Shown: positions 2,003 to 64,000 of the stretch, in pieces | Position numbering within the stretch: the first letter of the stretch is position 1 | How the letters are laid out: every line of letters begins with the position of its first letter | Assembly: GCA_019448385.1 (NCBI GenBank) | Contig: JAGTXO010000026.1 | Location: 64,501-128,500 of the forward strand | DNA length: 64,000 nucleotides | Reading direction: 5' to 3' | Source of the DNA: Diacronema lutheri | Lineage: Eukaryota; Haptophyta; Pavlovophyceae; Pavlovales; Pavlovaceae | Program-made: the position numbers and the translations under genes | The notes under the pieces: model-generated | Databases searched by the model: none | What the model was told of the DNA's origin: nothing | The model's input: the letters and a program-made list of their open reading frames with translations, nothing else

Positions 2003-3635
2003 AGCTGCACGGGATCGAGCGGGAATGCGCCGGGCATGGCCCCGGCCGCCGGCACCGCCGCGGGAACGGCGCCGTCGCCGGGGCTGCGCAGCAGCTCCGC
2101 CCACTCGCCCGCGCCGAGCGCGTCGCCCGTGTCGCGCGCCGCGCTCGAGGCGCGAACGTTCTCGACCAAGGCGTGCTGCCGATCGTGCTGCCACGGCGCC
2201 GAGTACTTGAGGCAGGAGCGCACGATCTGCGCGCGCGAGCCGCGCCGCACCACCGGCAAGCACTGGCGAAAGTCGCCGGCGAGCAGCAGCGTCTCGCCGC
2301 CGAAGCGCTCGTCGACGCCCGTCACGTCGCGCAAACACCGATCAGGCGAGTCGAGGTGGCACCGCGTCTGCATCGGCGCCTCGTCCCACACGACCAGCCG
2401 CCGCGGCGGCCAGGGAGCGCCCGCGCTCGGAGCGCGGCACGCCATTGAACGGCTTGCCCGTCGGAGTCGGCACCGCCGGGCACCTTGAAGGTCAAGTGGA
2501 AGGTGCGGCCGTCGGGCAGCAGCGTGGCGGCGACGCCCGAGGACGCGCCCACGACGACCGCGTGCCCATCCGCGCGCACGGCGGCGATAATGGCGCGCTC
2601 GACGAACGTCTTGCCCGTTCCGCCCGGCGCGTCGCAAAGATGCAGCCGGTTGCCCACGCCGCGCAGCGCCGATTTGACGACCGCGCCGTGGAGCGCGCAC
2701 TGCTGGCCGCCCTCGGCCATCGCCGCGCGCGCCGCCGCCGCGCTCGCAGCCCGCTCGGCGCGATGGTAGCCCTGCGCGCGCGCGAGCTCGCGCCCGCCCG
2801 GCCCGGCCGGCGCGCGCGCCGTGCGCAGACCGGCCACCGCCGCGAGCGCCGCCGCGCGCTCGCGCTCGTCGGGCACGTACAGCCCCGTGGAGTCGAACGT
2901 GTCGGCCCAGGCGGGCACGCCGTACGAGGCGAAGGCGTCCGAGCCGGGCTGCGGCCGCTGCTCGGCGCGCTTCAGGAGCATGACCCCGCACACGTTCCAC
3001 TTGGTGCCAAACATCGAGCCCGTGAGCCCCGTGTAGACGCGGTCGAGCTGCGTGGCGATGGCGCAGACGTCCTCGTGCCGGATCTCGTCGACCGGTTCGC
3101 GCCGCGCGTCGACGAGCGGCACGACGCGCTCGGAGCCCGCCCACGTGAACGTGCGCGTCGACATGTTCAGCCGCGTGTGCGCGAGCGTGTCGTCCTCGTA
3201 CTTGGGCTTGACGGCGGGCGAGAGCTTGCCGCGCACCTCCTCCTTCGAGAGGCCGCGCGTGTTGAGCAGCTCCTTCTGGCGCGCGTGCACCGTCTCGACG
3301 CGCTGATCGTCGATGGCGCGCAGGGCGCCAAAGTAGGCGTCCATCTGCGCGAGCGGCGCGCCTTCAATCGGCAGCTCCTTGTCGGTCACGCCGGCCGTGT
3401 ACGCCGCCTTGTCGACGTCCGTCGGCCCGTACATGGTGCCAAAGTTGCCGTCGCCCGTGAGCTCGGGCCAGTCGACGACGCAGGGCGGCGAGACGAAGGC
3501 GAGCGCGCGGCGCGACGGCCCGTAGCTCAGCTTGTCGACCGTGCGCGCCTGCTCGCTCGGCTTGACCGGCCGCGTGCTCACGATCTCGCAGTTGACGAGC
3601 GCCGCGTCGAAGGCGCGCAGGTCGATGGCGGCCAT
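2003..3635 (-). pseudogene. PIF1-like helicase with an N-terminal extension, frameshifted and truncated
   Basis: The frame begins at an ATG at 3635. About 300 residues of N-terminal region end in a C-G-V-M-L-L strand that faintly recalls virus-type ssDNA-binding proteins (low confidence). A Walker A motif APGGTGKTF follows, then a PIF1 motif Ia block (SSGVAATLLPDGRT, TFKVP). The frame is lost around 2400-2450. The next helicase motifs are in another frame: VVWDEAPMQTR (Walker B) at about 2371-2400, FGGETLLLAGDFRQCLPVV, GSRAQIV and a LVENVRA motif. The similarity stops at about 2003 (DPVQLV), where the sequence joins the YqaJ module in frame. Motifs V and VI of the helicase are missing. PIF1 helicases unwind DNA and are common in Helitrons, viruses and other large eukaryotic elements. 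I call it a pseudogene because of the frameshift and the missing C-terminal motifs; a sequencing error or an unusual intron could explain only the frameshift. Confidence 0.7.
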
Positions 3636-3846
3636 GGTCGTTGTGCGCGGGAGATCACGCTGCAGGCGGCTCCACAGTAGGTTCGAGAAAAAAAAAAGCT
3701 GGGCCAACGGTCAGTCGAGCGCCACAAGCAATCCTCGGGAGCCGGTGGCCCAACCCAACCCAACGATCTTCGTCGCCACCCTTCGCGCGTTTTCCGTTCG
3801 CGCCCAAGCAGACAATGAGACCACAATCTCGGTGCTGCTCGGCGCG

Positions 3847-4110
3847 ATGATGGGCCTCAGCGGCTCGGTGGCGATCGTGCTCTACGTGCGCGCGCGACGT
3901 CGCGAGGTGCAGCACGGGCGCGTGGCGACGCCGCGCATCATCCAGCGCCAGCTCGAGCTGCAGCTGCCGTGGGGCCGGCCGGACGAGGCATCCGTCGCCT
4001 CGCGTGCCGAAACGCCGGGCGTCGAGGCCGCGTCGCGCTCGGTGCGCGACGCGGCGCCCGAGCCGGACCCGGACGAGGGCTACGTGCGCGTGGCGAGCGC
4101 GGCGTTCTGA
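3847..4110 (+). CDS. Small single-pass membrane protein, hypothetical
   Basis: This 87-residue frame starts MMGLSGSVAIVLYVRARRR, a short hydrophobic helix followed by a basic stop-transfer segment. An amphipathic stretch (RIIQRQLELQLPWGRPDE) and an acidic tail end the protein. The frame stays open upstream (Q-A-D-N-E-T-T-I-S-V-L-L-G-A), and a CAG just before ACAATG at about 3809 could be a splice acceptor, so the true start may lie further upstream. I do not recognise the family. It lies between the left element copy and the palindrome, and it may be the 3' exon of a larger gene or a chance frame. Confidence 0.35.
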   Translation: MMGLSGSVAIVLYVRARRREVQHGRVATPRIIQRQLELQLPWGRPDEASVASRAETPGVEAASRSVRDAAPEPDPDEGYVRVASAAF

Positions 4111-4192
4111 GGCGCGCACGACGTCGCCCAGCCAGAGCAGCCCGGGGCGGGGCGAGTCCGGCTGCGCGGAGGTCCGGCTCGAGCGGGCGGGC

Positions 4193-4540
4193 GCCATGCT
4201 CTGAGGCGCCGCCGCTTTCTAAAAGGGTGTAGGGTGTAGGGTGTAGGATGCAAAACAAGCCCTCCCCACATTTGGGCCCGACGTCATTCCTTCTTCGAAG
4301 CCGTGACGTTACTCACATACGAGTACTTTTACTTAGTGTAGGATGTATCTATTCTCTAAGTATTTGCATAGTGTAGGGTGTAGGATAAGTACGGTTACGA
4401 AAGTCCTACAGGGAGTGAAGGAATGACGCTGTGACGAAAGAAGGAATGACGTCGGGCCCAGATGTGGGGAGGGCTTGTTTTGCATCCTACACCCTACACC
4501 CTACACCCTTTTGAAAAGCGGCGGCGCCTCAGAGCATGGC
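4193..4540. mobile_element. MITE-like unit 1 with about 104-bp terminal inverted repeats
   Basis: The left end (4193 to about 4296) begins GCCATGCTCTGAGGCGCCGC, then three GTGTAGG heptamers, then GCCCTCCCCACAT. The right end (about 4437-4540) is its reverse complement with about one mismatch and one shifted base. The interior is AT-richer than the flanks and carries further TGTAGG words. There is no coding capacity. Its length and structure suit a non-autonomous DNA transposon, but I could not define a target-site duplication. Confidence 0.7.
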
Positions 4541-4743
4541 GGCTCGACAGCATGGCGCCTATACAGCATGGCGTCGTCCAGCGTCACGCCGCGTCGTGGT
4601 CCTGCCGCTCCTCCGTGGCGCACGGATGGCGCTCCTCCGTGACGCAGCCGAACGACGTCGCGGCGTCACGGCCCGGGCGCAGTCGCCATCCTGGACGCCA
4701 CGCTGGACGACGCCATGCTGTCGAGGCGCCATGCTGTCGAGCC

Positions 4744-5076
4744 GCCATGCTCCGAGGCGCCGCCGCTTTCTAAAAGGGTGTAGGGTGTAGGGTGTAGGAT
4801 GCAAAACAAGCCCTCCCCACATCTGGGCCCGACGTCATTCCTTCTTTCGTCACAGCGTCATTCCTTCACTCCCTGTAGGACTTTCGTAACCGTACTTATC
4901 CTACACCCTACACTATGCAAATACCTAGAGAATAGATACATCCTACACTAAGTAAAGGTACTCGTATGTGAGTAACGTCACGGCTTCGAAGAAGGAATGA
5001 CGTCGGGCCCAAATGTGGGGAGGGCTTGTTTTGCATCCTACACCCTACACCCTACACCCTTTTAGAAAGCGGCGCC
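4744..5076. mobile_element. MITE-like unit 2, inverted relative to unit 1
   Basis: This is a second copy of the 4193-4540 unit in opposite orientation, nearly identical through the interior (for example CTCACATACGAGTAC in unit 1 against GTACTCGTATGTGAG here). Its left end, GCCATGCTCCGAGGCGCC, is complete; its right end stops at GAAAGCGGCGCC, about 15 bp short of the full terminal repeat. Confidence 0.7.
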
Positions 5077-5492
5077 GAAGGTGGGAGGATGCCACCCGTA
5101 TGCGCGCGTTTGAACGTGCGCGGACGGCCGTTGGCTTCGCGCCCTTTCGCCCACGGTTTGCGCGCCAACGGACCAGTCCTCCGCGGGCGCCGCGCATCGT
5201 CTCAGGGGCGGTCGGTGTGGTACGCCGCGCGCATCGTCAGCGCCGCGGCGTCGAGCTCGGCGAGCGAGGGCGCGTACGTGACGCCGCTCAGCACCTCGTC
5301 CGCGCCCGCCCTCGTCGCGCTCGCCGCCTCCGCAGTGCGCGCAGGCGGCTTCGTGACGGCACGCGAGGCCACGCCGCGCGCCGCAGGTGCCTTCGCGCGC
5401 TGCATCGTCTGTCTGCCGGTCCGACGCGCTCTGCTCTGAACGAACGGACGGCACGCCCGACGAGATCTCGTCGCGTGCACGCTCGCACAGCA

Positions 5493-6324
5493 TGTACCCC
5501 CAGAACGTCTCCGAGCTGCTGCCCGACGAGATCTTCGGCGACGAGCTGCTCGTCGACCGGCACTACCGCGTGCGCATCCTTCAGCGCGTCGCCCGCCGCC
5601 GCGATGCGGCCGAGGCCAACTTTTGGCTCGACGGCGGGCCCGCCGACTCGGTCGTCGGCGCGTGCATGTGCGGCCGAATCTACGCGCTCAAGTGCATGGG
5701 CCGGCTCGTCCGCGGCGCCCGGATCCTCGCGCTGCTGCGCAAAAATGTGGCGCTCGCCACGTGCCGCGCACACCTCATGGGCCACATGCTCCAGCGCATC
5801 GTCGGCGACAGCGGCGTCGCGCGGCTGCTGCAGCTGGTTGCAGCTCGTTCGCGAGGATCACGACACGCTCAACGCCGAGCACCAGGCCTTGGAAGCACAG
5901 CATGACACCGGCCAAGTCATGCGACGGCATGTGCGCGCGCGCCGACGCGCTCTCCAAGGACCTCGCACGGGCGCACGAGCACGCTCACAAGCTCGATGGC
6001 TATCTGGTGTGGTGCAGCGAGCGCCTCGGTGAGAGTGACTCTTTCAACGGAGCGCTCGAGAACCTGAACACGCGGTGCAGCATGAGATGTGCTGGCTCCA
6101 CGCCGAGATGTCGTCGCTCGTTGCGAGTTCGCCCGAGGCTTACGCGAACGACAGCGAGGCCACCGACTTCAAGGACCACGGCGTGTGCGTCGAGTTCGAT
6201 GTCTTCAACCGCGACGGGGTCGAGGGCGCGCCCGTGCCCGCGACCGCGCCCACGAAGGCAGAGCCGGGCATCGAGTCCGAGTGCATCGCGCCCGCACAGG
6301 CAGAGCCGGGCAGCGAGTCCGAAG

Positions 6325-6363
<39 letters not shown>

Positions 6364-6390
6364 GGCAGAGCCGCGCACCGAGCCCAAGTG
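5493..6390 (+). pseudogene. Decayed gene of unknown family
   Basis: A protein-like run starts MYPQNVSELLPDEIFGDELL at 5493 and continues for about 115 residues (MCGRIYALKCMGRLVRG..., ILALLRKNVALATCRAHLMG). The same kind of sequence then moves through other frames: LVREDHDTLNAEHQALEAQH, a helix-rich MCARADALSKDLARAHEHAHKL, and an acidic-proline tail (DHGVCVEFDVFNRDG, then KAEPGIESE repeats). The hopping frames suggest a broken gene with coiled-coil character, although unrecognised introns could contribute. No function can be assigned. Confidence 0.45.
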
Positions 6391-7083
6391 AGCCAACGTG
6401 CCGCCGAACTCGCCCAAGCTCTCGTCGGTCGACAGTCAGGCCACCGAGTACAAGACCTCCTACGCGAACTCACGTGCTCGCCACCTGCAACGCCTCGAGT
6501 TTACGCACGCGTTCGAGTCTGTGCAGGCCGAGGTCGCTTAGCCAAAGCGCGCCAAGGTTCCGGCCACCGGCGCATCCAGCCGCTGGCTGCGCAACACGGC
6601 GGTGCGCAACACCCGCAGCTCGGCCAACGGCAAGTAGCGCGCCGGCGCAGCGCACGGTATGCCGCGGCGAGCTCAGTCGCGAAGAGTGTCCGACTGGCCG
6701 CGCCCTCCACGGGGTGCACGCGCACTCGGCGCGGTCCGGTCAGTCAGGGGGCCTCAGCTTGCGCGATGCCAGTTGCGAGCCCCCCCGGAATCCGCCATTC
6801 TATTCTACTAGGCGTAAATCACCCAAGCCCTTCCGGTCGCCCGCATTCCGGGGTCGGACCCTCCGTCGGCCCGGCTCGGGCCCTCCGTCCGCCGCGCCCG
6901 CTCGACCCCGAATTCTACTCCAAATCGGCCGGTCAGGAGGGTGTCTCGGTCCTAGGCTCGTCATAAGCCTCGCCCCGACCCCTCGAGCGCTCATTGGCTG
7001 GCTTTTAACCCTTGATTGTACGACCCGGGTCGTACTCTCAGCCTTACACTGGCCGGACCAGCCCGGACCGCGCCGTATATAGG
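6391..7083. other. Gene-poor spacer with an 18-bp perfect palindrome
   Basis: No protein family was recognised in this stretch. It is less GC-rich than its surroundings and contains the perfect palindrome GTACGACCCGGGTCGTAC at 7018-7035. A TATATA word lies at about 7075-7080, just before the small frame at 7084. The palindrome could be a dimeric-factor site, but this is speculative. Confidence 0.4.
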
Positions 7084-20328: not shown

Positions 20329-20374
<46 letters not shown>

Positions 20375-48825: not shown

Positions 48826-49261
48826 CTTGTTCCTGTACACGCGTTCATTTTTCTGTATAGATGGTCAAGCCAAATCCGATCAGGGGCACGATCGAGCGCC
48901 CCGAGTGCAGCGCGGGCCATTCGGAAGGACGTCCTTGTGAGGGAGCTCTTCGCGTTTGGCGAGCGGGGGAGCACGACGCGCAGCGTTGCTGCGGCGGCGT
49001 GCGGGCGGCGAGCAGCGGTCGGGCTGCTCGCGACGAGGCCGGAGCAGACGGCGCCGTGGCCGCCGGCGCAGGTGACGCGCGCCGACGAGCCGTAGCGAGC
49101 GTCCGTGATCCGCACGGCGGTTGGAGCGGGCCGGCTGGTGCGGCGCGCTCGGCCACGGGTGGCGGCGTGCACGGGCGTGCCGAATGCGGTACGCGTCGCC
49201 AGCCGCGCGCGACCTGGGCAGAGCCCGCAAAGCGTCGACCGCTGCGCGGCTCGGCCGTGCG
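48826..49261. other. Spacer between the LHC repeat and the Fanzor stop; expected site of guide RNA and element end
   Basis: No gene was recognised on either strand. In TnpB and Fanzor loci the guide RNA lies at or just past the 3' end of the nuclease frame and runs up to the transposon end. For the minus-strand Fanzor that means this interval. It starts just right of a short AT-richer patch (about 48827-48862), which may mark the element boundary. The placement is inference from family knowledge, not a seen structure. Confidence 0.35.
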
Positions 49262-51990
49262 TCAACGCCGGCCGCGCTTCGGCCCGCGCGCGCTGCCGCC
49301 GCCGGCACTGGCGCTGGCAGCTCCGCGGGCGGGGGTGCGGGCGCGAGCGCCGCCGCCGCCACCGCCGCCGCGCCCGCCGCCGTCGTCGCCACCGCCGTCG
49401 CCGCCGCCGCCTCCCCCGCCGTCATCGTCGTCGTCGCCGCCGCCGCCTCCGTCGCCGTCGCCGTCGCCGTCGCCCTCGCCGCCGCCGCCGTCGCCGCTGG
49501 CGTCGTCGTCGTCGTCGTCGTCGCCCTCGTCGTCGCCCTCGTCGCCGCCGTCGCCCTCGTCGTCGCAGTCGTCGCCCTCGCCGTGCACCATGCGCTCCTC
49601 ACGCTCCCACACCTCGCCGCGCGCCCACCAGGCGAGCACGAGGGCAAAGCGCTCAGGCGTCGACGTGGTGTCGCGCCCGGCCGCGCGCGCCGCAATGTCG
49701 TGCACGTCGTAGAAGATGTTGCGCGCGGCGTTGTAGTCGCGGTGCACGGGCTTCTTGCCGCCGTTGCACGCCGGGCAGATGACGAGCGCGTGCACCGTGC
49801 GCGTGCCGCCCTTTGCCACGGGCAGGCGCGGGTTCTGCGCGAGCTCCGCGCCGCAGCGCTGCAGCCTGCCGCCCTTGGCGAGCCGCGGCATCGAGCAGTG
49901 CATCGACGTGTACGGCTCGGGTACGAAGACGGCCGCGACGCCGCGCCGCCGCAGCTCGCGCAGCAGCCCCACCTGGAAGGCGGGCGGCGCGCCCTTGGGC
50001 TGCGCGCCCTTGTGGTCGTGCAGCCACTTGCCCACGCACACGAGCAGCCGGTCGCGCGTCACGCCGTCGACGCAGTGCGCCGCGATGAGCGCCTCGGCGA
50101 CGCGCGCCGCGTTGGACCGCCCGCCGCTGTCGCGCCGCCAGCGCTCCTTGCGGCGCGCCGGCGCGTCGTACACGTGCTCGGCGGCGCGCTCGCGCACCCG
50201 CGCGCTCTCGCGGTGGAAGGCGATGTATTTGCCCGCGTCGAGCACCTTGGCGCTGTGCGCCTCGCCAAGCCGCGCCTCGTCCGCCTCCACGCTGAACTCC
50301 TCGCCGCGCCCGTCGGTGCGCACGCGCCGCCGCGCCGCGTTGGTCTTGGCCGTCTCGCGCGCAAAGCCCGCGGCGCGCGCGCGCGCGCGCTGCGTGAACT
50401 GCCGCCAGACGGCCGCCCGCCCGACGTGCGCAGAGTAGGTGGTGATGTTGCCCATGTTCGGGTCGGCCGCGACGACGACCGCCTCCTCGATGTCGATCGC
50501 CCGCCGCAGCTCGGAGCCGAGCGCGACGGCGATGCGCCCGTCCGGCCGGCGCCAGCGGTGCAGGACGCTCGAGCTGCCGGCCGGCGCCTGCGCCTTCGGC
50601 ACGAGGACGGTCGCGACGGCGTGCACGGCGACGCCATCCGTCACCACCGACGTGACGGGCTGCCGGCCCGGGAGCGGCACGCGCGGCAGCGGCGCGAGGC
50701 CCACCCACGAGCGCCGCGCGTGCCACGGCAGATCGGCCGGCGGCCGCTCGCGCCCGGCGTAGTCGAAGACGCGGTTGGAGATGTCGAAGCGCGTCGCGAA
50801 GACCGCGTACCTGACGCGCACGTCGGACATTGGCGGGACAAACGAGCCGCCTTGAGCGGTCCACTTGATCGGCTCGCCATCGTGGTCGCGCAGGTCCAGC
50901 GCCTTGAGCCGCGCGCGCAGCTCCTTGCGCTCGTCGTCCGGGAGCGTCTCCCAGATGGCGTTCGCGGTGAGGCGCACGTTGCGCGGCACCTGCGCGCAGC
51001 GCGCGGCGCGCGAGCGCGCGGGCGCGTGACCAACCTGGCCGCGGGGCGGCGCGCACGGCGGCGGCGCGCGCGCTTGGGCGCTCGGCGGCGGTAGCGGCAG
51101 CCGCGCCTCGCGCGCACATTGTGCGTGCGCAGCGGCGCCACATTATACCGCGGCGGCCGGTCGGTGAGCTGCGTGTACAGGCGCGCGAGCCGGCAGAGCA
51201 GCGCCTGCCCCTTGGCCACGTGCTGCAGGTTGCGGATCTGCACGAGGAAGTAGCGCGTCGTGTGCCGGTCGTAGTTCCACCTTTTCGTGGGCGCGCACTC
51301 GTAGTTGATCTTGTGGAGGACCATGTCGGGCAGGTGGCGGTCGAGCGCGGCGGGGCAGCCGACGCGCGCGCCCTCCACGTCGCCGCGCAGCAGCCGCTCG
51401 CACAGCTCGCGCACGCGCGCGTTTCGCTGCATCTCGGGCAGCGCGACGAGCGCCTCGTCGCGCTCGACTGCCGCGCGGACGACGTCGCGGAGCAGCCCGT
51501 TCACGACGCGCGATGGGTGCATCAGGCACGCGGTGGACACCTGCGTCGCCTCCTCCGCGAGGATCTTATCGAGGCCCACCGCGCAGACGGGCTGGACGCC
51601 GTCGGCCATCTCGCCGACGGCGCGCGCCGTCGCCGCCTTGGTCTGCGCGGCGGCTTGCTCGGCGGGCTTGCCTCGGGCCGCTGCACCGTACGTGCTCACG
51701 TCCTTGTGCCAGCCGATCGCCGAGAAGATCGCACGGACGGTTCCCTTGTCCATCGTGGTCGACGTGTGCACGCTTGTCGACGGGCCGCCCGACGCCGCGC
51801 CGACGGCCTGCGCGCTCGCCACCGCAGCCTCGTCGCGCACCACCTTGTTGATGACGCGGTACGCCTGTGTCGTGAGCCTGTGCACGGCCGCCGCGATGCG
51901 CCGCAGCTCCTTCCGCGCACCGGGCTGCGCCGTCACCGCCTGCGGCCCCGCGTTGAGCGTCGAGCGCTTGACCACGAAGCCCGGGAGCAC
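49262..51990 (-). CDS. Fanzor: eukaryotic TnpB-like RuvC nuclease (two exons, fused downstream of a chromodomain)
   Basis: Exon 1 ends at 51118 and exon 2 runs 50989-49262, around a GT-AG phase-0 intron (51117-50990, 128 bp) that joins RPPRYNVAPLRTHN to VPRNVRLTANAIWETLP. The N-terminal part, from about PGFVVKR (51990), is helical and basic. Exon 2 carries the split RuvC core: aspartate in EEAVVVAADPNMGN (about 50464), glutamate in VAAVFVPEPYTSMHCS (about 49918) and aspartate in VHRDYNAARNIFYD (about 49738). Four zinc-ribbon cysteines (TSMHC, LQRC, ICPAC) lie between the last two. This is the signature of TnpB/Fanzor, RNA-guided DNA endonucleases of the IS605-like OMEGA family. The tail is a roughly 110-residue Asp/Gly-rich stretch ending PKRGRR, a possible nuclear signal. 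Exon 1 is continuous with the long upstream frame, so its own start is not defined. All catalytic residues are present. Confidence 0.85.
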
Positions 51991-54900
51991 GCTGCCGCGC
52001 GTGCGCGCCGTCGCGCCGCCGGCGGCGCGCGCGCTCGGCGCAGCGGGCTCGTCCACGCGCGCGCGCTCGACGCCGCGCGCGCGGGGAACGCTCGGCGCGC
52101 GCGCGCCCGCGGCGTCGCGCGCGCTCGCGGCAGCACCCGCCGCGGCGCGCTTGCCCGCGGCGCCCGACACGCCGTGCGCGCGAAGCGGCGCCGACGCCAA
52201 TGCCGACGCCGCGCCCGCGCCGCCGCTGCCGCTGCCCGATCCGCCCGCGCGCCGCTTCTGCTCGTCGCGCGTCTTGCGGAACTGGGCGACGAGGTCGCTG
52301 CTCACGTTGGCCTCAGGCTCCCACGTGTCGGCGCTCTCGTCGTAGCCCCGCCACCTGATCCGGAACTCGAACGTCAACTTCTTGCCCGCCTTGCGGCGCT
52401 CGTCGACGACCGCCTCGACCTCGTACGTGCGCGCCTCCTCGTCGACGCTCGCGCCCGCCGCGCTCGCGCCCGTGTCCGGCCACCCAGCGACCGTGCCGCC
52501 CAGCCTCTCGGCGGCCGCGCGCAGCTGCCGCTCGCGCTGGGCGGCCGCGGCGCCTCGCGCGACCAGCGCGGGCAGCATGCCCGCGCCGCCCGCGAGGCCG
52601 TGCGCGCCGACGCTGGCGGTCATCAGCGCGTCGAGGCACGCGAACGTTGCGAGCGCACGCGCGCCATCGTCGCCGCCGCGCGGCTGCGAGCGCACGACGG
52701 GCGATGGCTGCGGCTCCCCCTCGGCCGCGAGCAGCGGCCAGATCGCACTGGCCAGCGCGACGGCATGCGCGCCGACCGCGGCGGCCACGTCCGCGTCGAG
52801 CGGCGCAAAGTCGTAGCGCACGAGCGCGGCCGGGCGCGAGTCGTCCGTCGGCCGGTCGGCGACGAGCAGCCCGACCGGGCGCGGCGGCTCGCCGGACGGC
52901 GCGGCGACGGGCACGCAGAGGAGCACGACGAGCAGGCGCGGCGTGCCGCCGAGCAGCGCGCGCGCGGCATCCGCCCCGTCGGCTCCGCAGCGCGCGGCCG
53001 CGGCGAGCAGCTCGGCCGCGCGCGTCGGGCCCAGCGCCGTGCGCGCGTCCTTGCGCGCGCGTGCGCGCGCCGTGTACGCGGCGCAGGCGTCGTCGAGCGC
53101 CGCCGCGCTGGGCGCGGTGCCAGTCGTCGCCCACGCGCGCAGCGCGTCGCGCACCCGCGTGACGATCGCCTGGTCGACTGCCGCCTCGCCGGCAGCGTGC
53201 GCCGGCGCGCACGCCGGCGGTGCGGCGGCAGGCGCGAGCGCGGGCGCGCCGTCGGCGCCGTCAACGCCGACGGCGCCGTCGGCGCGCCGCCACGCGAGCT
53301 TCGCCTCGATCTGCTGCCGGACGGCGTGGCAGTGCCGGTCGATGCCGCGCGCGTCGTCGAGCGCGGCCAGCGCGTCCTCAGCGGCGGGACGGTCGCTCGC
53401 GTCCGCGACGGCCTGCAGGCAGAGCAGCGCGGCCGCACGCGCGTTGCACGCGCTCTGCGGCTCGGGCGCGAGCGCGAGCTCGAGCTCGAGCGGCGACGCG
53501 CCTCGCGCCGCGGCGATCGCGTCCATCAGCACGTCCAACCGCTGCACCAGCGCCCTGTGCGCGTCGCGCGGCGCGCCCGTCGACGGCGCGCGCGAGCGCG
53601 TCGCCACGAGCCCGAGCGCGCGCGCCGGCGCGCCCGCCGGCGTGTGCAGCACGAGCAGCGCCGCGCCCGCCAAGCTCGCGTTGCGCGTGACGAGCGCGAA
53701 GATGCGCGACGCCTCGTGCGCGCCCACCGACGCCCAGATCGCAGCGCGATCGGCGTCCGTCTGCGCGTCGCACAGGTCGCGCACGTCGTCCGGCGCAAGC
53801 AGCGCGCCGCCGCCGGCGGAGCGCGCGACGATCGCCCGCGCCTCCGCCACGAAGACGGCCTGCGGCAGGTCGGCGTGGCGCGCGTCGACGATGGCGCGCG
53901 TCGCGTGCACGCCGAGCTCCACGCCGCGGTAGAAGGCGCGCGCGTTGGCCGCGCGCGCGTGCGCCGGCCGTCCGTCCGCGTTGCGCCTCGCGCGCGCCTG
54001 CTTGCTCGTGCGCGCGAGGCCGTCGCGTGGCGGTGGCGGCAGCGTAGCGAGGAAGCGCGCGGTGGGCGGCGGCGCGCGCACGCCGCGCTGCCGCCGTGCG
54101 ATGGCCGCGAGCCGCCGGCCCGCCGCGCTGCCGCCCGCGCCGACGTGCTGCCAGCGGTTGAGCGCCGCCGGTGGCGGCGGCGGCGGCGGCGCGGCGGCGG
54201 GCGGCGGCGCGACGGCGGGCGGCGGCGCGGCGGCGGGCGGCGGCGCGGCGGTGGGCGGCGGCGCGGCGGCGGGCGGCAGCGGCGGCGGCGCGCCGGCGAC
54301 GGCAGCACCAGTCGGCTTGTCCGCCCACGCACCCGAGACGCTGTCCCAGGCCTTGCCCGGTGGCGCGCGCCCACGCGGCCGCGGGTGGCGGGCTCGAGCG
54401 GCGGGGGGCGGGCGGCCGGCGCGCCAGTCGAAGACAGGTGCAACCGTGGCGGCAGGCGCCGAGTGCCGCGCGTCGGTCACAGAGCGCGTGGTGCGCGCGG
54501 CGACCGTCGCGCGCATGGCGGGCGGGCGGTGAGCAGCGCCCGCCGGCGCGCCGGCGGGCGCGGCAGCCGGCGCGCCGGCGGGCGCGGCCGCCTCGAGCCC
54601 GGCGGAGGCGCCGCGCTTGCGCTTGCGCGTGCCGCCGCGCGTGCGCCTGCGCGCGCGCCCGCCGCGCGCCCGTTCGGCCTGCGCGTCGCCAGCCGCGTCG
54701 CCGGCCGCGTCGCCGCGCCGCACGTAGACGACCGCGAACGCCTCCTCGCCGGTCCCGTCGACGCCGCCGCGCGCGCGGCGCAGGACCGACCGCCACTGCA
54801 GCCGCCGCGCGCGGCCGGGCTCGCACGCAAACCAGCGCCCACCGCGCCTGACGACGGCCACAAAGTCGTCGTCGCGCCGCCCGCGCCGGCGCGTGCGCAG

Positions 54901-57900
54901 CAGCACGCACTGCACGTCGAGCCAGCCCTCGTGCCAGTCGGCCGTGCTGGGGGCGACGCGAATCGACTGCGGGAGCTCGACGCCAAAGCCGGCGAGCCGC
55001 ACGATGTGCGCGACGATGACGCTCGAAATGGCGGGGGCGCTCGACGGGTCGCCCGCTGCAGCGAGCACCGCCCCGCCCCAGTGCTCACGCGTGACGCAAT
55101 CCGCGTCCTCGACGTGCACGTGCGCCACGCTCGCGCCGAGCTGGTGCAGCAACGCGCAGATGTCGGCGTCGACCGTCCTCTCCTCCTCGGCCGCCTCGGC
55201 CGTGCCGCGGGCGGCGGCGTCGCCTGCCGGCTGCCCGAGGTACGCGATCGCCCGCTCGACGGCCGCGCGCTCCGCACGCGCTGCGCTGTCGATCGCCGCA
55301 TTGCCGACGGGCGCGCGCAGCGCCGCGATCGCGTCTTGCAACGCCGTCGCGTCGCCCGTCGCCGCCGTCGCCGCCACCGCCGCCGCGCTCGCGGTGCCGT
55401 GCGCGACGGCGTGCAGCGCGGCGGCGCGCGCGGCGGGGATGCGCCCGTCCAGCGCGAGCACGAGCGGCGGCCCGGCCGGCGTCTGCTGCCGCCGGTGCCG
55501 CCGGCTCGCAGCCGGGTGGTCGGCGCGCGCGCGCTCGAGCCGCGCGCGCCGCTCGACGACGCGCGCCCAGAAGGCCTGCACCCTCGGCTGCGCGAATGCA
55601 AGCCAGCCGGCGCCGCGCGTCACGACGTGCACGACGATCCGGTCCTCGTGCCTGAGGTACTGCACGTAGAGCGCTTTGCGCACGCCGAGGACGTGCATGC
55701 CGAGCTGCAGCTGATCGCGGTGCGGCTGCGGCGGCCCGTCCTCGTGCGCCTTGGCGTCCGCCTTGGTGAGCGTCTTCACCTCGACGAGGACCTGCTCGTT
55801 GTCTTCGGGGAGGATGGCGAGCCCGTCCGGCGAGAAGGCGAACGGCGCGCTCTTGTCGTGCGGGTCCGCACGCACCATCGGCAGGTTGCACACGACGGTG
55901 ATGCCGTACGCGGCCGCCAGCTTGCGCAGCGCGACGGCCTCGCCGAGGATGCCCGCGGTCGTCGCCTTGGTCCGCACCTCGCGCCGCCGCCGGTGCACGT
56001 ACTCGTCGGTGAGCGTCTCGTGCGCGACGCCGGCGTTGTCGTTCACGACGTCGCCAACCTTGCTGCCCGTGACCTCCTCCCATCGCTCGTCGTGCCAGCG
56101 CGGGCTGCGCTGCGCGGGCGCGCCCGCGCCGACGGCGTCGAGCACGCGGCGCAGCGCTGTGCCGTCGGGCGCAGCAGGCACGCGCGCGCAGTCCTGGGCC
56201 TCGCGAGCGTCGAGGACGCAGCCCGTAGTGGAATCTTGGGGTAGGTCGAGCTTGCTCGCCTCGCCGTAGCGGCTCTCCAGCTGGCGCGGTGCGTCGGCAG
56301 GGCCGCCGTCCGTGCGCGCACCCGACGCGCCCGCCAGTGCACGGGGCGCAGCGTCCGAGGCGCCCGCCGCGCCCGCGCCGCCGCCAATCGCGCCAGCGCA
56401 CGCGCGCGCCGCGACCTGCGGACGGCCAGCCGCAGGGACCTCGTCCGCTCGGCCGGCCGCTGCGTCGGCCGTCCGCTTGGCCACCTCGCGCACGTCTCCG
56501 AGCGCGAGCGTGGCTGGCGCCGTCGAGCTCCCGTGGCGTTTGTTCCAAAACTCGAGCAGCCCGCCAAGGAAGGGCGTGCCCGTCGGGCGGTCCTCGGGCA
56601 CCTCCGCCAGGATCGCGTCGACGCGCAGCGCGGCCGCCACATCGCAAAACGCGCGCGCGGCGCGCGCCATCCGCTCGGCGCGCGCGCCGCCGTCGTCCGC
56701 CGCGCGGCGGATGGCGTGGCTCACGTGCGCGACGCGGAGCGAGACGACGGCGTGCGCCGGCGCGTCGGCGCCCGTGCCGAGCGTGTGCCGCCGGATGGCC
56801 AGCTGCCCATCGCCCATGCGCGGCGGGAGCGACGCGCACGCCGCGACGGTCGTCTTGCCGGCCGCGCTGTCGCACAGCCAGCTCGCCTCGCCGCCGCCCG
56901 CAAACTCAAAGGTCGCGAAGCCCTCGCGGCCGAAAAGCGCGACGAAGTGGTCGAGCACCGCCTTGTTGATCGCGCGCGCCGCCGGCCGCGTCGATGCGCC
57001 GCGGGCAGCGCCACCCGCCGCGCCGCGCGCATCGCTGCACGTCGCAGGGCAGGTGCAGCCGGACGCGCGCACGCCGTCCGACCGCGTCCGCGGCAGCTCG
57101 AGCTCGCGCACCTTGGGGCAGAACCAGAGCGGGTTGGACGCCTCGAGGCACAGCACGACGAGCCGCCCGTCCGTGCCGGCCAGCGCGCGCGCGTCGCGCA
57201 GCAGCTCGACGGCGAGCTCGGACGTCGCCGCGTGCACCGCCGGCTCGCCCGTCGCGCGGTCGGGCGGGAAGAGGCCGCCGCCGACGAGCGGGCTGGGGCA
57301 GCGGCCGAGCATCACGAGCAGCGGCGGCGGCGGCGTCTGCGGCGCCTGCTGCCCGACCGCAGCCGCCGTCAGCCCGGCCAGGTCGGAGCTCGTGCGGAGG
57401 GCCTTGAGCGCGACGCGCGAGCCGGTGCCCGCCTGCTCGGAAAACGTGGCGAGCATGGCGCACGTGCTCGCCCTCGCGCCGCACTGCCAGCTGACGCGCG
57501 CGAGGAGGCCTTCCAGCGTGTCGTTTTCGCGCGGCCGCGTGACCGCGTCGAGCGCCGCCGAGTCGAGCTGGAGGCTGCCGGGCGTGACGCACAGCACCGC
57601 CTCGTGGTAGGCGCGCAGCAGCTCCCTCGGCAGCTGCTCGGCGGGCGTCGCCGCCTGCCCGCCCACCCACCGTGCACCGTGGCCGCCGTCGCCCGCGCCC
57701 GCGAGCCGCACCGCCGGCCCGCCCGTGATCGCCGAGGTCGGTGGCGTGCCGAGCGCGTCGACGAGCGCGCGCACGGGCGCGACACGCCTGCGCGCAGCGT
57801 CCGCGCCGACGGCGAGCGCGGCGATCCGAGCGCCCTCCCATGCGCGCTCCCTCGCGTCGTCCCGCGCGGCCGCCGGCGCGGCGCCCGGCCGCGCGCCGGG

Positions 57901-59806
57901 CGGCACCGCGCACGCCGCCGCGACGACCTCCGCGCGCGCGCCGGCGGCGTCGGGCGCGTGCAGCTGCGCGAGCGCGCCAGAGAGCGCGGCGGCCGAGCGG
58001 TAGCGGCCGTGCGCCGCGACGAGCGCGTAGAGCACGCGCAGCGCGGCCACGCCCGCCTGGTCGGGCGCGTCGTCAGCGATGCGCTCGACCTCCCACGTGC
58101 GCGTGGGCGGCGGGCTGCCGTCGGCCGGGTCCGGACGCAGCGCCCACGCGCGCTCGACGATCGCGTTGAACACGCCGTGCGCGGCGCCCTCGTCAAACTC
58201 GGCGGCGCCCGCCGCGTGCGCGCACCACCCGTGCACGCGCGACGTGGGCGCGTCCACGGCGCGCTGCACGACGAGCACCGCCGGCCGGTCGACGCAGCCG
58301 AGGCTCACCGCCGCGTGCTTGCCCTCGAGCAGCGCCGCCGCCGCAGCCTCGACCAAGGCGTCACCAGGCGCGTCGCCGACGACGACGGCACAGCCGTCGC
58401 CGTACTCGGCCTGCATCGCGGCGACGCACGACGCGACAAAGTCGCCGCCCGCGGCCGCCGCGTGTCGCGCCGCCAGCATCCGGCGCGCGATGGCAAGCCA
58501 GACGTACTCGGCCGGCGCGCGCGCGGCGCGCGCGCGAGGCGCGCCGGCCGCGCCGCGTGCGCCAGCGCGTGCGCCTCCAGCGGCCGCAACGGCCGAGGCG
58601 GCTGGAGCGGCGGTGAGCGTGCGCCGCGCGCGCTTCGCCGGCCGCGTGATGGGCGATGCACCCGCCGTCGCCCCGCCCGCAGCAGCCGGTGCGGCCGCCA
58701 CAGCGCCCGCCGCAACGCCACTCGTCACGACGCCCGTGGCGGGCGGCGCGGCGGCGGACGCGGCCGCCTCGACGGGCGTCGCGCAACTACCGCCAGCGGT
58801 CGCGGACGCGCCCGGCGACGCGTCGGCGAGGAGGTGGCGCAGCACGCCGCGCGCGAGCGCGACTCGCACGGCGAGCGTCAGCGCGCGCAGGCGGTCGGAA
58901 GGCGAGGCGTCGCGCTCGGCGTCGGCGGACGTGGCGGCAGCAGGCGAGGCGGCGGGCGGCGCGGCGGCGGGCTGGGCGGCCGCCGGCGCAACCTCGTCGG
59001 CCTTGGCCAGCCAGACGAGCCCGGCGACTGCGAGCACGACGCTGTACGCGCCGACATCGTCACCCGCAACGCGCGCCAGCCGGGCGTGGGCGTCGGCCTC
59101 GGACACGGCGACGTGGAAGAGCACGTCGTCGCGGGCAGCTTGCTCGGCAAACTGACGCAGCTGCTTGGCCATCGTCACGCCGGCGACGCACGCCTCGCCC
59201 GCCTCTGCCTCGACCTGCTCGTCCTGGCCGATGGCGGACGCGCCGGCCTCGGCGCCAGCGTCGAGTGTCCGGCGGCGCTCGAGGGCGAAGCCACGCACAC
59301 AGACGCTCTGGAGGCCGCCGAGCGCGCCCGCCTTCTCGTGCAGCGCGCACGACAGCTCGACCACCGAGTCCACGCGCCTCGCGGCGGCGCCCCCCCGCTC
59401 GCCGCGCGTGGCCGCGCGCACGACGAACACCGTGAATTGCGCGCGCTTCGCCGCGCGCGCCGACGCGCACGCGTGCTTCAGGAGCCGGCAAAGCGCGGGC
59501 CTTTGCGCCGCTGCGCCCCGCGTGCACAGCAGCAGTTGGCCGCGCTCGTCGCCCAGCTCCTGCTCGATGGCGGCCTCGAGCGCGTCGTCCGTCAAATCGC
59601 CGTGCTCCGTCGAGGCGAGCGCGCGCGCAGCCGCGAGCGCCAGCTCGCCTGCGCCCGCGCGCCGCCGGCGGCGCGCACCGGCGGGCGCGTGCGGCGCCGA
59701 CGCGTGTGACGACGCCGCCGCGTCCGCGCGCGCACACGCGGCGCGCAACGCCTCACGCGCCGAGGCGGCCGCGCGCGCCCTGGGCGCGAGCTTCAAGAAC
59801 GTGCGC

Positions 59807-59899
<93 letters not shown>

Positions 59900-62800
59900 T
59901 CGCCCTCGTCGCCGGCCGGCGGCGGCGGTGGCGGCGGTGGCGGCGCGGCCACGGCGGCGGCAGCAGCGGCGGCGGCGGCGGTGGCGGCGGCGGCGGCGCC
60001 CAGCGCGGGCGGCGGCGGCGTGGCGGCGGCGGTGGCGGCGGCGGTGACGCCAGCGGCGGCCTTGGCGCCGCGCGTCTGCGGCGGCGTTTCGGCGCGATCG
60101 GGGCTGCCCCCGCCACGCACCGCGCTCGTGACCGCGCAGACGCCGCCCGGCGCACGATCGCTGGCCGCGCCGGTCAGCGCGACGCGGAGGCGCTCGCCGA
60201 CAGCGTACATGTCCGCCACGCTGAACGTGCGCGGCGCGGACGAGCAGCCCGCCGCGGCGAGCGCGTCGTTGAGCGCGCCCACTATCGCGAGGCCGCACGT
60301 CGCGCCACGCTGCGCCGCCTCGTTGAGCAGCAGCGCGCGGCGCACGCGCGAAATGTCGAGACCCGCCGCGTGCAGCGTGGCAGTTATCGCCTTGGCGAGC
60401 ATGAGCGCCTGCCTGCAGGGCGACGCGAGCGTGTCGACGAGCACCGCGTCGTAGCGATGCTCGCCCGCGCGCGCGACGCGCACAAGGCGCAACGCGGTGA
60501 AATGGCCGGAGGCGAGCTGCGCGCCGTCGTCACCGCCCGCGCCGCCGCGCTCGTCCGACGGGCTCCACACGCCGATGACAGCCTGCGTTGTCGCCTCGCT
60601 GCGCAGGCGGTGCAGCAGCGCGGCGCGCTCGGCGCCGTCCTGGAACACCGCGGGTTGCGCGGCGAGCGGCACGTGGCAGACATGCCCGCCGCCGGCCTGC
60701 CCGTGCACGCGCAGCACGACCTCGCAGCACGCGTCGACGGTTGAGGCGAGCATGTCGCCGCTGGCGATGCGCTCCACCTCTGCCTGCGGGAGGCCGGCGC
60801 TCGCGGCGGCGGAGGCCAGCCGGCGCGCAGCCGCGTCGCCCGCCCACGCCAGCAGCGCCGAGTTGGCGGGTTGGAGGGGAAGCTCAAGGGCGGCTGGTTC
60901 GGTGGCGGTAGCCTCGTTGGCAACGGGCACGTTGGCGGTGCGCACGTTGGCGGCGGGCGCGGCGGCGATGGCTGGTGGGGCGGAAGACACGCCCGCGGCG
61001 GCAGGCGCGGACGCGACAGCGGCAGCGACTAGTGGGGCGGGGAAAACGCCGTCGGTGGCTGGCGCGGAGGCGAGTGCAGGAGCAACTAGTGGGGCGGGAA
61101 AATCGGCGGCAGGCGCGAAGGCGGATGCAGCAGCGGCTAGTGCGGCGGGGAAAACACCGTCGGCGGCAGGCGCGAAGGCGGATGCAGGAGCGCCCAGCGG
61201 GGCGCAGAAAACACCGTCGGCGGCAGGCGCGAAGGCGACAGCAGCAGTGGCCAGTGGAGCGGAGGCGCAGGGCCACGCGCGCGCCAGCCGTGCAAGCCCA
61301 AGCCGCGCGCGAGCGACGCACGCGCCGATGGCCGAGGCGGCGGCGCAGGCCACGACGTGGCCTGGCACCGGTGTGGCCAGCCGCTCGCGGGTGTGCACGT
61401 CGAGCCGCGCCCCACGCCAAGAGCGGCGGCGCGCTGAACGGAGGCGCGCGACCCCGATCGATCCGCCCGCGCACGCGCGCGCCGGCTCAGTGTGGCCAAC
61501 GCGCGCCGCTATGCAAGGCGCGCGCGCGATAACGGCGGCTGTCGGCCGTGGCGTGCGCGTGGCGGCGCCGCGGCGACGGGCGCGGCACACGAGCCGCTCG
61601 GGCGCGCCGCCGCCGCGCGGCACGATGTCGAGCAGCACGGTCACGCCGCGCGCGCGCGCGACCGCCGTGCACGCGAGCCGCACGGGCAGCGGCGGCCCGT
61701 CCGGGCGCGCGAGCGCCGCCACCTCGGCGTCGGTGAGGCTGTGCAGCTCGCGGCGCGCGCGCGCGAACGCGGCGATGTCCGCGCGCAGCTCCGCGTCCGT
61801 GCCGAGCGCGGCACGCGCGTGCACGGGGAGCGACGCGCGCAGCGCGTGGAGCACGCCGCCGCGCGCGCCGCGCGGCGCCGGCGCGCGATCGCGCTCAGCG
61901 CGCGCGGCGCGCGTGAGCTCGCGCACCGCGCGCGCGAGATTGCGCCGCGCGGCCGCGACGGGAGGGCTAGGTGCGCGCGCGCGCCGGTTGTAGCGCGGCC
62001 GCGCCGAGTCGAGGGGCGGCGGACGCGGTGCGTACGCCGCGGCGCGGCCCGCGCGCCAAAAGGCCGGCGGCGGGCGCAGCTCCGTCGCGTCGACCGCGGC
62101 CGCGAGCGCGCCGAGCGCGGCGTCGCTGTCGCCCGCCGCGTCGGCCGCGTCGACGAGCACGAAGAGCGCGCCGAGCGCGCGCGACGCGGCCGCCTGCGCG
62201 GCGGTGGGGCGGGCGCAGGCAGCGACGCATGCGGCCGCCATGCCGCGCGCCGCGGCGAACGCCGGTGACGTGACGGCCGCGCCGATGGCAACGGCGGCGG
62301 CGGCGACGGTCGAGGCGGCAGCGCCGGCGATGGAGGTGGCAGCGGCGGCGGCGCTTGCCATCGCGCGGCGCGCGAGACGCGAGGCGCCACCGACCGCCGC
62401 CGCCGCAGCGCGCGCTGCGCGCGCGCCGGTGGCGCGCATCGTCGCCGCGCCAGGCGCCGCCGCGCCGACGCCGCCGGCGCCCGCGCCGTCGCCGCTCTCG
62501 GCCGTGCAGGGCTCCGATGGCGAACCCGGCGTGCGCTGGCGCGTGATGCGCGCGCCGAGGCGCGCGCTCCGCGCCGCGCGGCCGGCGACGTCGAGGAAGC
62601 GCCGTGCGCGCGCCGCGCGTAGGCCACGCGCGCGCGGCGGCGCACCGACAGGCGCCGAGCGCCGCGGCGCGCACGCCGGCGCGTCGCTGTCGGGTTGCGC
62701 AGCGCGCGCGCGGGAACTCGGCGCGGCGTGTGCGGGCGGCGGGCGCGCGCCCGCGCGGCGCAGAGGCGCGAGGCGCCGGCCGCAGACGAGGCGTGTGCGC

Positions 62801-64000
62801 AACCAGGACGGCGAGGGCCGCAGGGCGCCGTCGACGTCGCGCATCGGCGGGCCGCGAGCCCGCCGCGCAGCCGTGCGGCGCGCGCGAGGCGCTCGGCGGC
62901 GCGCGCGCCGCACGGCGCGCGCGGCGGCGCGCACGCCAGCGACGGCTGCGGCCACGCCGCGCGCCAACACGGCCGCGGCGTGCGCCATCGCACCGAGCAC
63001 GGCGCGTGGCGCGCCGAGCAAGCGCAGCAAGCGCGACGCCGTCGCGCGCGCCGGCGCACCGTGTGCAGGGGCCTCGCCAGCGCCAGCACCGACGCCGCCA
63101 TCGCCGCAGCCGCAGGTGGCGTCGCCGCCGCCGCAGGCGTCGCGACGGACGCCGCCGCCGCCGAAACAATCGCCGCACACGTCGCCGCCGACGTTGCCAC
63201 CCCAGCCGCCGTTGCGTGCGCAGGTGGCTGCGGCGCGTGCGTGCGGGAGGCGTGCCGTGCGGCGCGCATCACACGGGCTGCGCGACGCGAGCGACGCCGC
63301 CGGGGTCCCCGCTGCGCCAGGCGCGCCGTGCGCGCCAGCCTCGCCGGCCTCGCCGGCGCGCGGTCGCGCGCTCGCCTCGACGTGGCCGCCTCCGCCGCCA
63401 TCGCCGCCGTCGAACCGGGCGGCGGAGAGCTGCCGCTCGAACCGCTCGTCGGCGTCGGCCGCCACCGCCGCCTCGCGCTCCGCCGCCGCGGCGGCCGCCG
63501 TACGCGCGTGGCGGAGCGCGCGGCCGCCGTCCGCTGCGCGGCGTGGCGGCGCGGGCGCCGCCTTCGGCGCGCGCGGCCCCTCGGCGCGCTCGCGGAGCAC
63601 GGCGAGCGGCGTGCCCGTGGCGACGCTCGTGCAGACGCGCCGCAAGGCGGCGCGTACGCACGCGTGGACGACGCGCGCCGTCCGCTTGTCGGCGGCGCGC
63701 GCGGCGCGGCGCGCGGCCTTGGCGGCGGCCTTTTTGGCGCGCCTCTGCTCCGCCTGCTCCGACAGCGCGCGCGCCTGGCGCTCGGCTGCGAGCGCGTCCT
63801 CGGGCGAAACGGTCGGCCTCGGCGGCCGCGCGCGCGCGCTGCGACGCTGCGCGCTGCGGCGGTCGGACGGCGGCTGCCGCGGCGGCGAGGACGGCGAGCG
63901 CGAGCTCGGCGTGGGCGACCAATCGCCGCTGACGGTTGCGAGCGGCGCAAACGGGTTGTCGTCCCCGCGCCCCGCGGCGTGCGACAGTGCACGCGGCGTC
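51118..64000 (-). CDS. Very long open frame of a mobile element: Ulp1-like protease, YqaJ nuclease, chromodomain, Fanzor N-part (5' partial)
   Basis: The minus frame is open from the right edge (DDNPFAPLATVSGDWSPTPS) to the Fanzor intron, over 4,200 codons. The order is a basic disordered region; a conserved block near 61600-62000 (LHSLTDAEVAALARPDGPPL); about 20-residue Ala-rich repeats (60960-61270); a Ulp1/C48-like protease (60180-60870); poly-Ala (59806-59900); globular unknowns (57900-59750; 56530-57660, with LVVLCLEASNPLWFCPKV and FLGGLLEFWNKRHGSS); a YqaJ nuclease (55610-56110); another unknown (54720-55230, DDDFVAVVRRGGRWFACEP); the chromodomain; and the Fanzor N-part. GC content keeps stops rare, so several genes or exons may share this frame. 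Real domains in one frame throughout favour a polyprotein or one giant gene. It probably encodes the core of a large DNA element. Confidence 0.6.
52262..52445 (-). CDS. Chromodomain encoded in frame upstream of the Fanzor
   Basis: In the same minus frame as Fanzor exon 1, about 90 Ala/Arg-rich residues upstream of it, lies a chromodomain: TYEVEAVVDERRKAGKKLTF, then FEFRIRWRGYDESADTWEPE and ANVSSDLVAQFRK. The Y-x-V-E start, the WRGY and the DTWEPE acidic motif are diagnostic. Two aromatic cage residues (Tyr and Trp) are kept. Chromodomains bind methylated histone tails and steer many transposon integrases to chromatin. Whether it is on the same polypeptide as the Fanzor depends on the absence of an unseen start or splice site between them. 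Confidence 0.85.
54403..56416 (-). repeat. Dispersed repeat, right copy of 13-2002
   Basis: This direct-orientation copy is nearly identical to the left edge of the window; it has an extra 24-bp GC-rich unit near 54560. The frame is preserved in both copies, so the coding sequence seems to have been kept under constraint or duplicated recently. Confidence 0.9.
55610..56110 (-). CDS. YqaJ-type exonuclease domain of the element protein (right copy)
   Basis: In the long minus frame this segment has SPRWHDERWEEVTGSKVGDV, TKATTAGILGEAVALRKLAA, the SPDGLAIL aspartate and EQVLVEVKTLT (ExK). These are the motifs of the YqaJ/lambda-exonuclease PD-(D/E)xK fold, ending with ALYVQYLRHEDRIVVHVV. It is nearly identical to the module at about 1196-1696. 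In viruses this nuclease pairs with a recombinase for strand annealing; in eukaryotic elements its role is not settled. Confidence 0.75.
59806..59900 (-). repeat. (GCG)n run encoding poly-alanine
   Basis: About 95 bases of almost pure GCG repeats encode a 30-residue alanine run in the long minus frame, followed by further Ala- and Pro-rich stretches to about 60050. The run separates the protease-like domain from the next globular segment. It is expected to be unstable in length. Confidence 0.9.
60180..60870 (-). CDS. Ulp1/C48-like cysteine protease domain of the element protein
   Basis: Within the long minus frame, LASGHFTALRLVRV supplies a His, YDAVLVDTLASP an Asp, and LLNEAAQRGATCGLAIVGAL an oxyanion-side polar residue and the Cys-Gly pair. 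That is the H-D-(N/Q)-C order of Ulp1/SENP-type proteases. The preceding LLAWAGDAAARRLASAAASA belongs to the same domain. Such proteases are frequent passengers in eukaryotic DNA transposons and could process a polyprotein or remove SUMO/ubiquitin. The sequence is divergent, so the specificity is unknown. Confidence 0.6.
60960..61270 (-). repeat. About five tandem units of roughly 60 bp encoding Ala/Phe/Pro repeats
   Basis: Units read like FAPAADGVFPAPLVAPALAS with small changes (DGVFCAPLGAP, DGVFPAALAAA, ATDGVFPAPLV). They link the conserved region near 61600-62000 to the Ulp1-like domain in the same frame. The period is a multiple of three, so the frame is kept. Confidence 0.75.

Follow-up and report, generated by a model that had tools for sequence, protein, structure and literature searches.

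A predicted chromodomain-Fanzor fusion encoded by a high-copy Helitron-like element of the haptophyte alga Diacronema lutheri

The closest described systems are the Helitron2 elements CRe-1, 2 and 3 of the alga Chlamydomonas reinhardtii (Bao and Jurka 2013, PMC3627910). In the part of that report available to us they are non-autonomous, carry a Fanzor1 gene of 5-10 exons and have asymmetric ends with a 3′ hairpin; they leave mostly no target duplication and some variable ones, they are related to Helitrons, and no chromodomain fusion is mentioned. We analysed 64,000 nucleotides of Diacronema lutheri (GenBank assembly GCA_019448385.1, contig JAGTXO010000026.1, positions 64,501 to 128,500; hereafter the window, in which position 1 is the first letter). 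Its minus strand encodes a chromodomain and, downstream of it, a Fanzor, both within a transposable element. This element is like CRe-1, 2 and 3 in its algal host, its Fanzor, its asymmetric ends with a 3′ hairpin, its mostly absent target duplications and its Helitron relationship. Unlike them, it is 29-31 kb long and encodes its own Helitron-type helicase and a giant fused frame.

The Fanzor1 of Spizellomyces punctatus, SpuFz1 (Saito et al. 2023, PMC10432273), shows the same D-x-N, E, late D pattern as the Fanzor of D. lutheri. RNA-guided cleavage has been demonstrated for SpuFz1, with no chromodomain mentioned in the portion of the paper available, whereas the D. lutheri Fanzor is known from its sequence alone. 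A chromodomain on a mobile-element enzyme is also found in the integrases of Ty3/gypsy chromoviruses and adintoviruses. Those enzymes are of the rve/DDE type and carry the chromodomain at the C-terminus, whereas here the chromodomain lies N-terminal to its partner, a RuvC nuclease.

The chromodomain is located at 52273..52425 on the minus strand. A Pfam scan of the entire 4,452-aa in-window frame gave PF00385 with E=5.2e-12 (4.8e-13 in a 485-aa piece), and the chromodomains of CDYL, HP1 and MPP8 were among the top solved relatives. The residues Y 52425, W 52353 and Y 52344 align with HP1/CDYL at the positions which we take to form the aromatic cage of HP1, so that the chromo profile and the three aromatic residues are both present. 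The minus-strand chromodomain of the original prediction was thus borne out by profile, cage and relatives. Judged from the intact cage, the domain would bind a methylated histone tail of the H3K9me type. Elsewhere in the genome, a 1,421-codon frame at C69:981566-982417 (L003/L004) holds two chromodomain matches that are unlike those of the element family.

The Fanzor is encoded in two predicted exons, both on the minus strand. Exon 2 (49262..50989) encodes the C-terminal half, with the RuvC D/E/D, four zinc-ribbon Cys, HRD and an acidic/Gly-rich tail, and exon 1 (51118..52002) encodes the N-terminal half, which occupies the REC/WED position as judged by its place and frame. PF07282 (Cas12f1-like_TNB) matched with E=2.2e-6 at 28.2 bits against a cut-off of 26.3, and with 2e-6 when exon 2 was trimmed; NCBIfam guided_TnpB gave E=0.016 on exon 2, far under its cut-off. 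The N-terminal half had no match of its own in scans of Pfam, NCBIfam and PHROGs. The RuvC acids are D 50464-50462 (in DPN), E 49918-49916 and D 49738-49736 (in HRD), and the zinc-ribbon Cys residues are at 49897, 49855, 49777 and 49768. All residues named in the original prediction were therefore located, and profile scans returned both domains, PF00385 and PF07282.

The arrangement of these residues was compared with published descriptions of the family, each available to us in part. The Fanzor motif has been given as D ... [TS][TS]xx - C4 zinc finger - RD (PMC3627910), and the order D, YTSMHC, four Cys, HRD was found here, with 182 residues from D to E and 60 from E to D. In Fanzors and their bacterial ancestors a glutamate has been reported at a distance of six residues ahead of the zinc finger (PMC10711439); in agreement with this rearranged-glutamate rule, the E of the D. 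lutheri protein stands six residues ahead of the first zinc-finger Cys (E-PYTSMH-C). The first Cys pair is C-x13-C, not CxxC. RuvC-I reads DPN, whereas DPG has been described as near-exclusive at this site in Fanzors (PMC10711439). Because metal is coordinated in SpuFz1 by D383, N385, E541 and D606 (PMC10432273), DPN departs from the majority Fanzor pattern and not from all proven members. Post hoc regular expressions for the Fanzor motif and the chromodomain found this stretch as the sole match in the window, and none in 60 versions of the window generated by an order-5 Markov model. Protein searches for relatives returned only P0003, a public unnamed 570-aa Fanzor C-half of 94% identity, which like the window copy retains the RuvC acids and cysteines. 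One of these searches scored only the 7,995 candidates that shared most words with the Ala-rich query, so diverged Fanzors would escape it. By its sequence the Fanzor is real, and from its family membership it would be RNA-guided.

The original prediction placed the chromodomain and the complete Fanzor in one frame. This held for the chromodomain, the linker and the N-terminal half of the Fanzor, which share a single frame (50641..63999, minus strand) with no stop between the domains. It did not hold for the RuvC/zinc-ribbon half, whose open reading frame (ORF; 49262-51142) occupies another frame, past a predicted intron. This GT-AG intron of 128 bp (50990..51117) joins the exons in frame as YNVAPLRTHN/VPRNVRLTANAIW (PLRTHN to VPRNVRLT) and thereby brings THN and VPRNV back into one frame; the junction presumably resembles the conserved Fanzor segment at the same position. 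Every one of the 14 aligned rows has the same donor and acceptor; the rows represent 13 distinct places including the window, as L007 and L013 come from a single place. The stretch from the chromodomain to the splice site measured 1,323 bp in 14/14 rows and contained no stop in 13/14; in the remaining row, L014, three stops followed compensating single-base indels in the exon 1 stretch near a contig end. Between the two domains lies a low-complexity Gly/Ser/Ala/Arg linker of about 90 residues (52003..52272), which was free of indels in the 13 rows aligned with the window and has lost 6 bp in the older copy L084. These data support a single predicted polypeptide that carries both the chromodomain and the Fanzor.

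The same frame extends far upstream. Its full length is 4,611 codons, of which 4,452 lie in the window, and the chromodomain and Fanzor exon 1 stand near its C-terminal end. For the copies, at least 150 chromodomain places were scored and four unlike ones excluded; among the 146 same-scoring copies that remained, the frame was open for at least 4,000 codons in 102 and for at least 2,400 in 125. A chance long frame in GC-rich DNA was rejected on the grounds of the profile-supported domains and of the frame being kept in these 102 copies. A YqaJ/lambda/RecE-type exonuclease domain lies inside the frame at 55690..56097 (minus strand), with E=5.2e-16 for the RecE-like phrog_434, 6.7e-6 for TIGR03033, which is under its cut-off, and 0.017 and 0.0029 for PF09588, both under the cut-off. 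The simple two-domain protein that had been pictured gives way, with the predicted intron and an upstream part of about 4,600 codons bearing this exonuclease, to a much larger product.

Beyond the giant frame and outside the window, the same copy encodes a USP/UCH-like domain (PF00443, E=3.2e-5, L032; the C82 copy gives 4.3e-8). It also encodes there a PIF1-family helicase (PF05970, E=6.5e-19, L036; 1.1e-24 in the C82 copy; 3.7e-14 in the second copy at the left of the window). A region past the window looks Ulp1-like by eye, with no profile match. The best PDB match of the helicase was Helraiser at 5.3e-32, against 1.9e-8 for PIF1 entries, which makes Helraiser, a bat Helitron, its closest solved relative. 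The element ends, TATATA(C/G)GG... and ...CATCTATAC, are not inverted repeats of each other and are not the 5′-TC / CTRR-3′ of Helitron1; a short match resembling the asymmetric terminal inverted repeats (ATIRs) of the Helitron2 type was seen at the ends by eye alone. Among 12 copies with both flanks, the 5′ junction reads (C/G)TATATA(C/G)GG in 11, and target duplication beyond the shared TATA/TATAC was absent in 11 and amounted to 13 bp in one. Several Helitron traits are thus present: no terminal inverted repeats, mostly no target duplication, a 3′ subterminal hairpin and a Helitron-type helicase.

The copy with the 13-bp duplication (L062/L063, C9:2907740-2938910) lies in a site reading CTATATACGG, which is like the element's own 5′ end. 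Duplication of a fixed 4-5 bp target was disfavoured as a description of the TATA or TATAC that all 12 copies have near both junctions: because TATATAC/TATAC sit inside the 13-bp duplication, TATA(C) was taken as element sequence, a decision based on one copy only. A viral origin was also considered; a viral-contig scan with the Fanzor C-half was empty, capsid and polymerase families not being searched for.

The window copy of the element measures 29.2 kb (C28:113355-142525), of which the part at 48855..64000 (minus strand) lies in the window. Its 3′ non-coding end, the stretch between the Fanzor stop and the 3′ terminus (48855..49261), reads ...GGCTTGACCATCTATAC on the coding strand and contains a hairpin with a 7-bp stem (48883..48902), 28 nt from the 3′ terminus and present in minimum-energy folds, which is a candidate for the Helitron-like 3′ hairpin. 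Homology of 11 internal copies (L021-L031) stops at 48852-48855, and their flanks differ by eye. In the genome searched (103 contigs, 43.49 Mb; the NIVA-4/92 assembly is published as 103 contigs of 43,502,671 bp with 73.25% GC, made with Canu, PMC8379373, available in part), the 3′ terminal 17-mer had 197 exact matches and the 5′ end 236 matches at no more than two mismatches, with none for either reversed-pattern control. Chromodomain cores numbered 235 and Fanzor cores 229 at no more than three mismatches, again with no match for the reversed controls. The contigs C1, C5 and C83 begin at the element 3′ terminus, and their copies, with the 5′ end about 31.0 kb in, give the upper size of the element. 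Its share of the genome, 5.7-7.3 Mb of 43.5 Mb, is an upper bound that holds if all 197-236 ends are full-length.

Among the matches listed (100 of 235 chromodomain cores, giving 89 places on contigs C1-C39), 83 of the 89 chromodomain places are followed on their own strand by a Fanzor core at a distance of 1,857-1,887 bp. Conversely, among 100 of the 229 Fanzor cores listed, 17 places had no chromodomain at up to three mismatches. Five of these were inspected, and four had a diverged or broken chromodomain (L081, L082, L084 and L085) and one, L083, was deleted upstream of 50808. L081 has an altered chromodomain with the frame open, and L084 is an older copy, 7% diverged, with frameshifts. The majority of the aligned copies belong to one of two groups that differ by about 2%, and a 2-bp difference between these subfamilies at 48896 lies on the edge of the hairpin loop. 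The copies first compared were 97.5-100% identical over the main match; amplification would therefore be recent, with little time for selection to show.

L012 (C6:1-5000) looks mosaic, its exon 2 being almost the same as in the window copy and its upstream part carrying differences of the other subfamily, which suggests recombination or conversion between copies. The contigs C1, C5, C6, C10, C12 and C83 start no more than 3 bp from the element 3′ terminus (six of the nine starts inspected), probably through assembly breaks at the boundary of a long repeat. Targeting of telomeres was discarded, as there are many internal copies and the first 120 bases of nine contig starts contain no telomere repeat. 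The pre-insertion site was not recovered: the 3′-flank paralogue diverges short of the insertion point, and the left copy has a unique 5′ flank.

We read the locus as a spliced gene of a high-copy, ~30-kb Helitron-like haptophyte transposon, whose giant protein would end in chromodomain, linker and Fanzor, with the chromodomain tethering the Fanzor; we give this reading about an even chance. The chromodomain would bind a methylated histone tail and hold the Fanzor, perhaps the whole transposition complex, on chromatin. A guide RNA from the 3′ end of the element, reading into flanking DNA, would direct the Fanzor, which would cut matching unoccupied target DNA beside a TATA-containing motif like the conserved CTATATA of the 5′ junction; the TATA type of this adjacent motif is suggested because of that junction sequence. 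Cutting would help the element to be retained or copied, much as IS elements benefit from TnpB, while roles in replication and strand exchange would fall to the Helitron-type helicase and the RecE-like exonuclease. A targeting role has been proposed for the integrase chromodomain of chromoviruses. That the chromodomain of the D. lutheri element could steer insertion, an idea of the original prediction, fits its membership in a mobile element. We doubt a chromatin-gated RNA-guided nuclease, in which Fanzor cutting and element copying are confined to nucleosomes with one methyl mark; if true, sequence addressing by guide RNA and epigenetic addressing would be combined in one protein.

Several results weigh against this reading. 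The Helitron Rep domain (PF14214, Helitron_like_N) was not found in the element by a genome profile search, and as it is the defining domain we term the element Helitron-like and not a Helitron; while Helraiser is the closest solved relative of the helicase, no Rep/HUH was detected beside it. The sole PF14214 match in the genome (C63:35738-36019, L080) is a separate locus whose frames look interrupted, and comparison with element pieces showed only shared low-complexity DNA. Regular expressions for HUH, reverse transcriptase and recombinase motifs gave no convincing match in seven frames. For the Fanzor, phmmer with exon 2 against the PDB returned no Fanzor chain (an unrelated chain at 0.19, Cas12f1 at 0.32). 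AlphaFold models had predicted local distance difference test (pLDDT) values of 37.8 (three sequences) and 40.4, both unusable, and a fold search with these low-confidence models gave no match at E<=0.001. The exon 2 frame was kept in six of the ten rows that cover it; the single-base indels in the other four may be contig-end errors. L082 has a stop in the chromodomain and L085 has lost the second cage Tyr. Folding of the 3′ non-coding end gave z -1.25, with 13 of 100 shuffles as good; this end is only slightly more stable than the shuffles. The 34 copies on five contigs were spaced more evenly than random; because the test ignored the size exclusion of a 30-kb element and assembly breaks where long repeats adjoin, we conclude only that the insertions are not clustered. 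The functional coupling of the chromodomain to guided cutting that the original prediction envisaged is unsupported.

Selection was assessed by the ratio of nonsynonymous to synonymous differences per site (pN/pS). For exon 2 against the window it was 0.54-0.64 in the other main group, 0.63 in L085 and 0.84 in L084, and 1.81 on 12 changes between L085 and L013. For the Fanzor N-half against the window it was about 1.2 in the other main group, 1.26 in L085 and 1.89 in L084, and 0.66 in L012. In the chromodomain, the main groups differ from the window by no synonymous and one or two nonsynonymous changes, L085 by none and eight, and L084 by three and 12 (ratio 1.11); the ratio of L084 was 0.46 against L085 and 0.50 against L013. 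Because divergence is small and GC bias strong, the evidence for selection is weak and mixed, with mild constraint on exon 2, none shown on the Fanzor N-half and no clear direction for the chromodomain, which is a further point against the reading of a working fusion.

High ratios of this kind would be expected if Fanzor and chromodomain were decaying passengers, a once-useful cassette amplified with the element and now inactive. They are about 1 or higher when the chromodomain is compared with that of the window and, for the Fanzor N-half, in the majority of comparisons, and the broken copies L082, L084 and L085 point the same way. Yet at least 4,000 codons are open in 102 of the 146 same-scoring copies, the window copy and P0003, at 94% identity, both retain the RuvC acids and cysteines, and with copies 97.5-100% identical the amplification is recent and would have left selection little time to act; we regard decay as rather improbable.

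Two further explanations separate the two domains. The giant product may be a polyprotein cut after translation, with the chromodomain staying upstream and the Fanzor freed as a separate nuclease. A frame of about 4,600 codons ahead of the Fanzor C-half would suit such processing, as would the USP/UCH-like domain (PF00443) and the Ulp1-like region seen by eye, and the low-complexity linker divides the two domains. This linker is, however, without indel in the 13 rows against the window, and the domains are adjacent at 83 of the 89 places among the matches listed, though neighbouring genes would be too; processing of this kind seems unlikely to us. Alternatively, a promoter or start past the chromodomain would yield a plain Fanzor, and the chromodomain would end an upstream protein. 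The Fanzor N-half could be a normal Fanzor start, and a start inside the linker is compatible with the sequence; but the shared frame has no stop between the domains, the 1,323-bp stretch is constant in 14/14 rows and free of stops in 13/14, and upstream the open frame continues for thousands of codons, so that two genes are quite improbable. The spliced fusion ending in chromodomain, linker and Fanzor is the reading that we prefer.

The remaining features of the window lie outside the fusion gene. A second, internally deleted copy of the element (C28:58928-71581) lies partly in the window, at 1..7081 on the minus strand, with its 5′ end at 7081 and a helicase ORF at 2325-3710. A LINE-like 5′ truncation (LINE, long interspersed nuclear element) was rejected for this copy, which is internally deleted and keeps its 5′ end. 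Open frames on the opposite strand lie near that end (5357-7079, plus strand), and two that were tested had no Pfam match. Two 954-bp duplicates (43275-44228 and 47825-48778), 99.7% identical, contain by eye a probable light-harvesting protein gene, and the second ends 77 bp from the 3′ end of the window copy. An 18-bp tandem array of 8.2 copies with 98% match lies at 19129-19275, and a 91-bp G-rich run at 20282-20372.

A chromodomain-Fanzor fusion was not found described in the literature searched, which consisted mostly of papers open without subscription and in part of partial texts. The D. lutheri genome paper (PMC8379373) mentions long terminal repeat (LTR) and LINE repeats in the part available; the words 'Helitron' and 'transpos' are absent from its main text, and no existing name for the element was found in that part. 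A chromodomain-Fanzor would give mobile elements a new means of connecting chromatin with guided cutting. More than 200 whole or partial, mostly recent copies in a small algal genome offer a direct system for asking whether guided cutting depends on chromatin state, and such a protein would also hint at a natural blueprint for genome editors restricted by chromatin.

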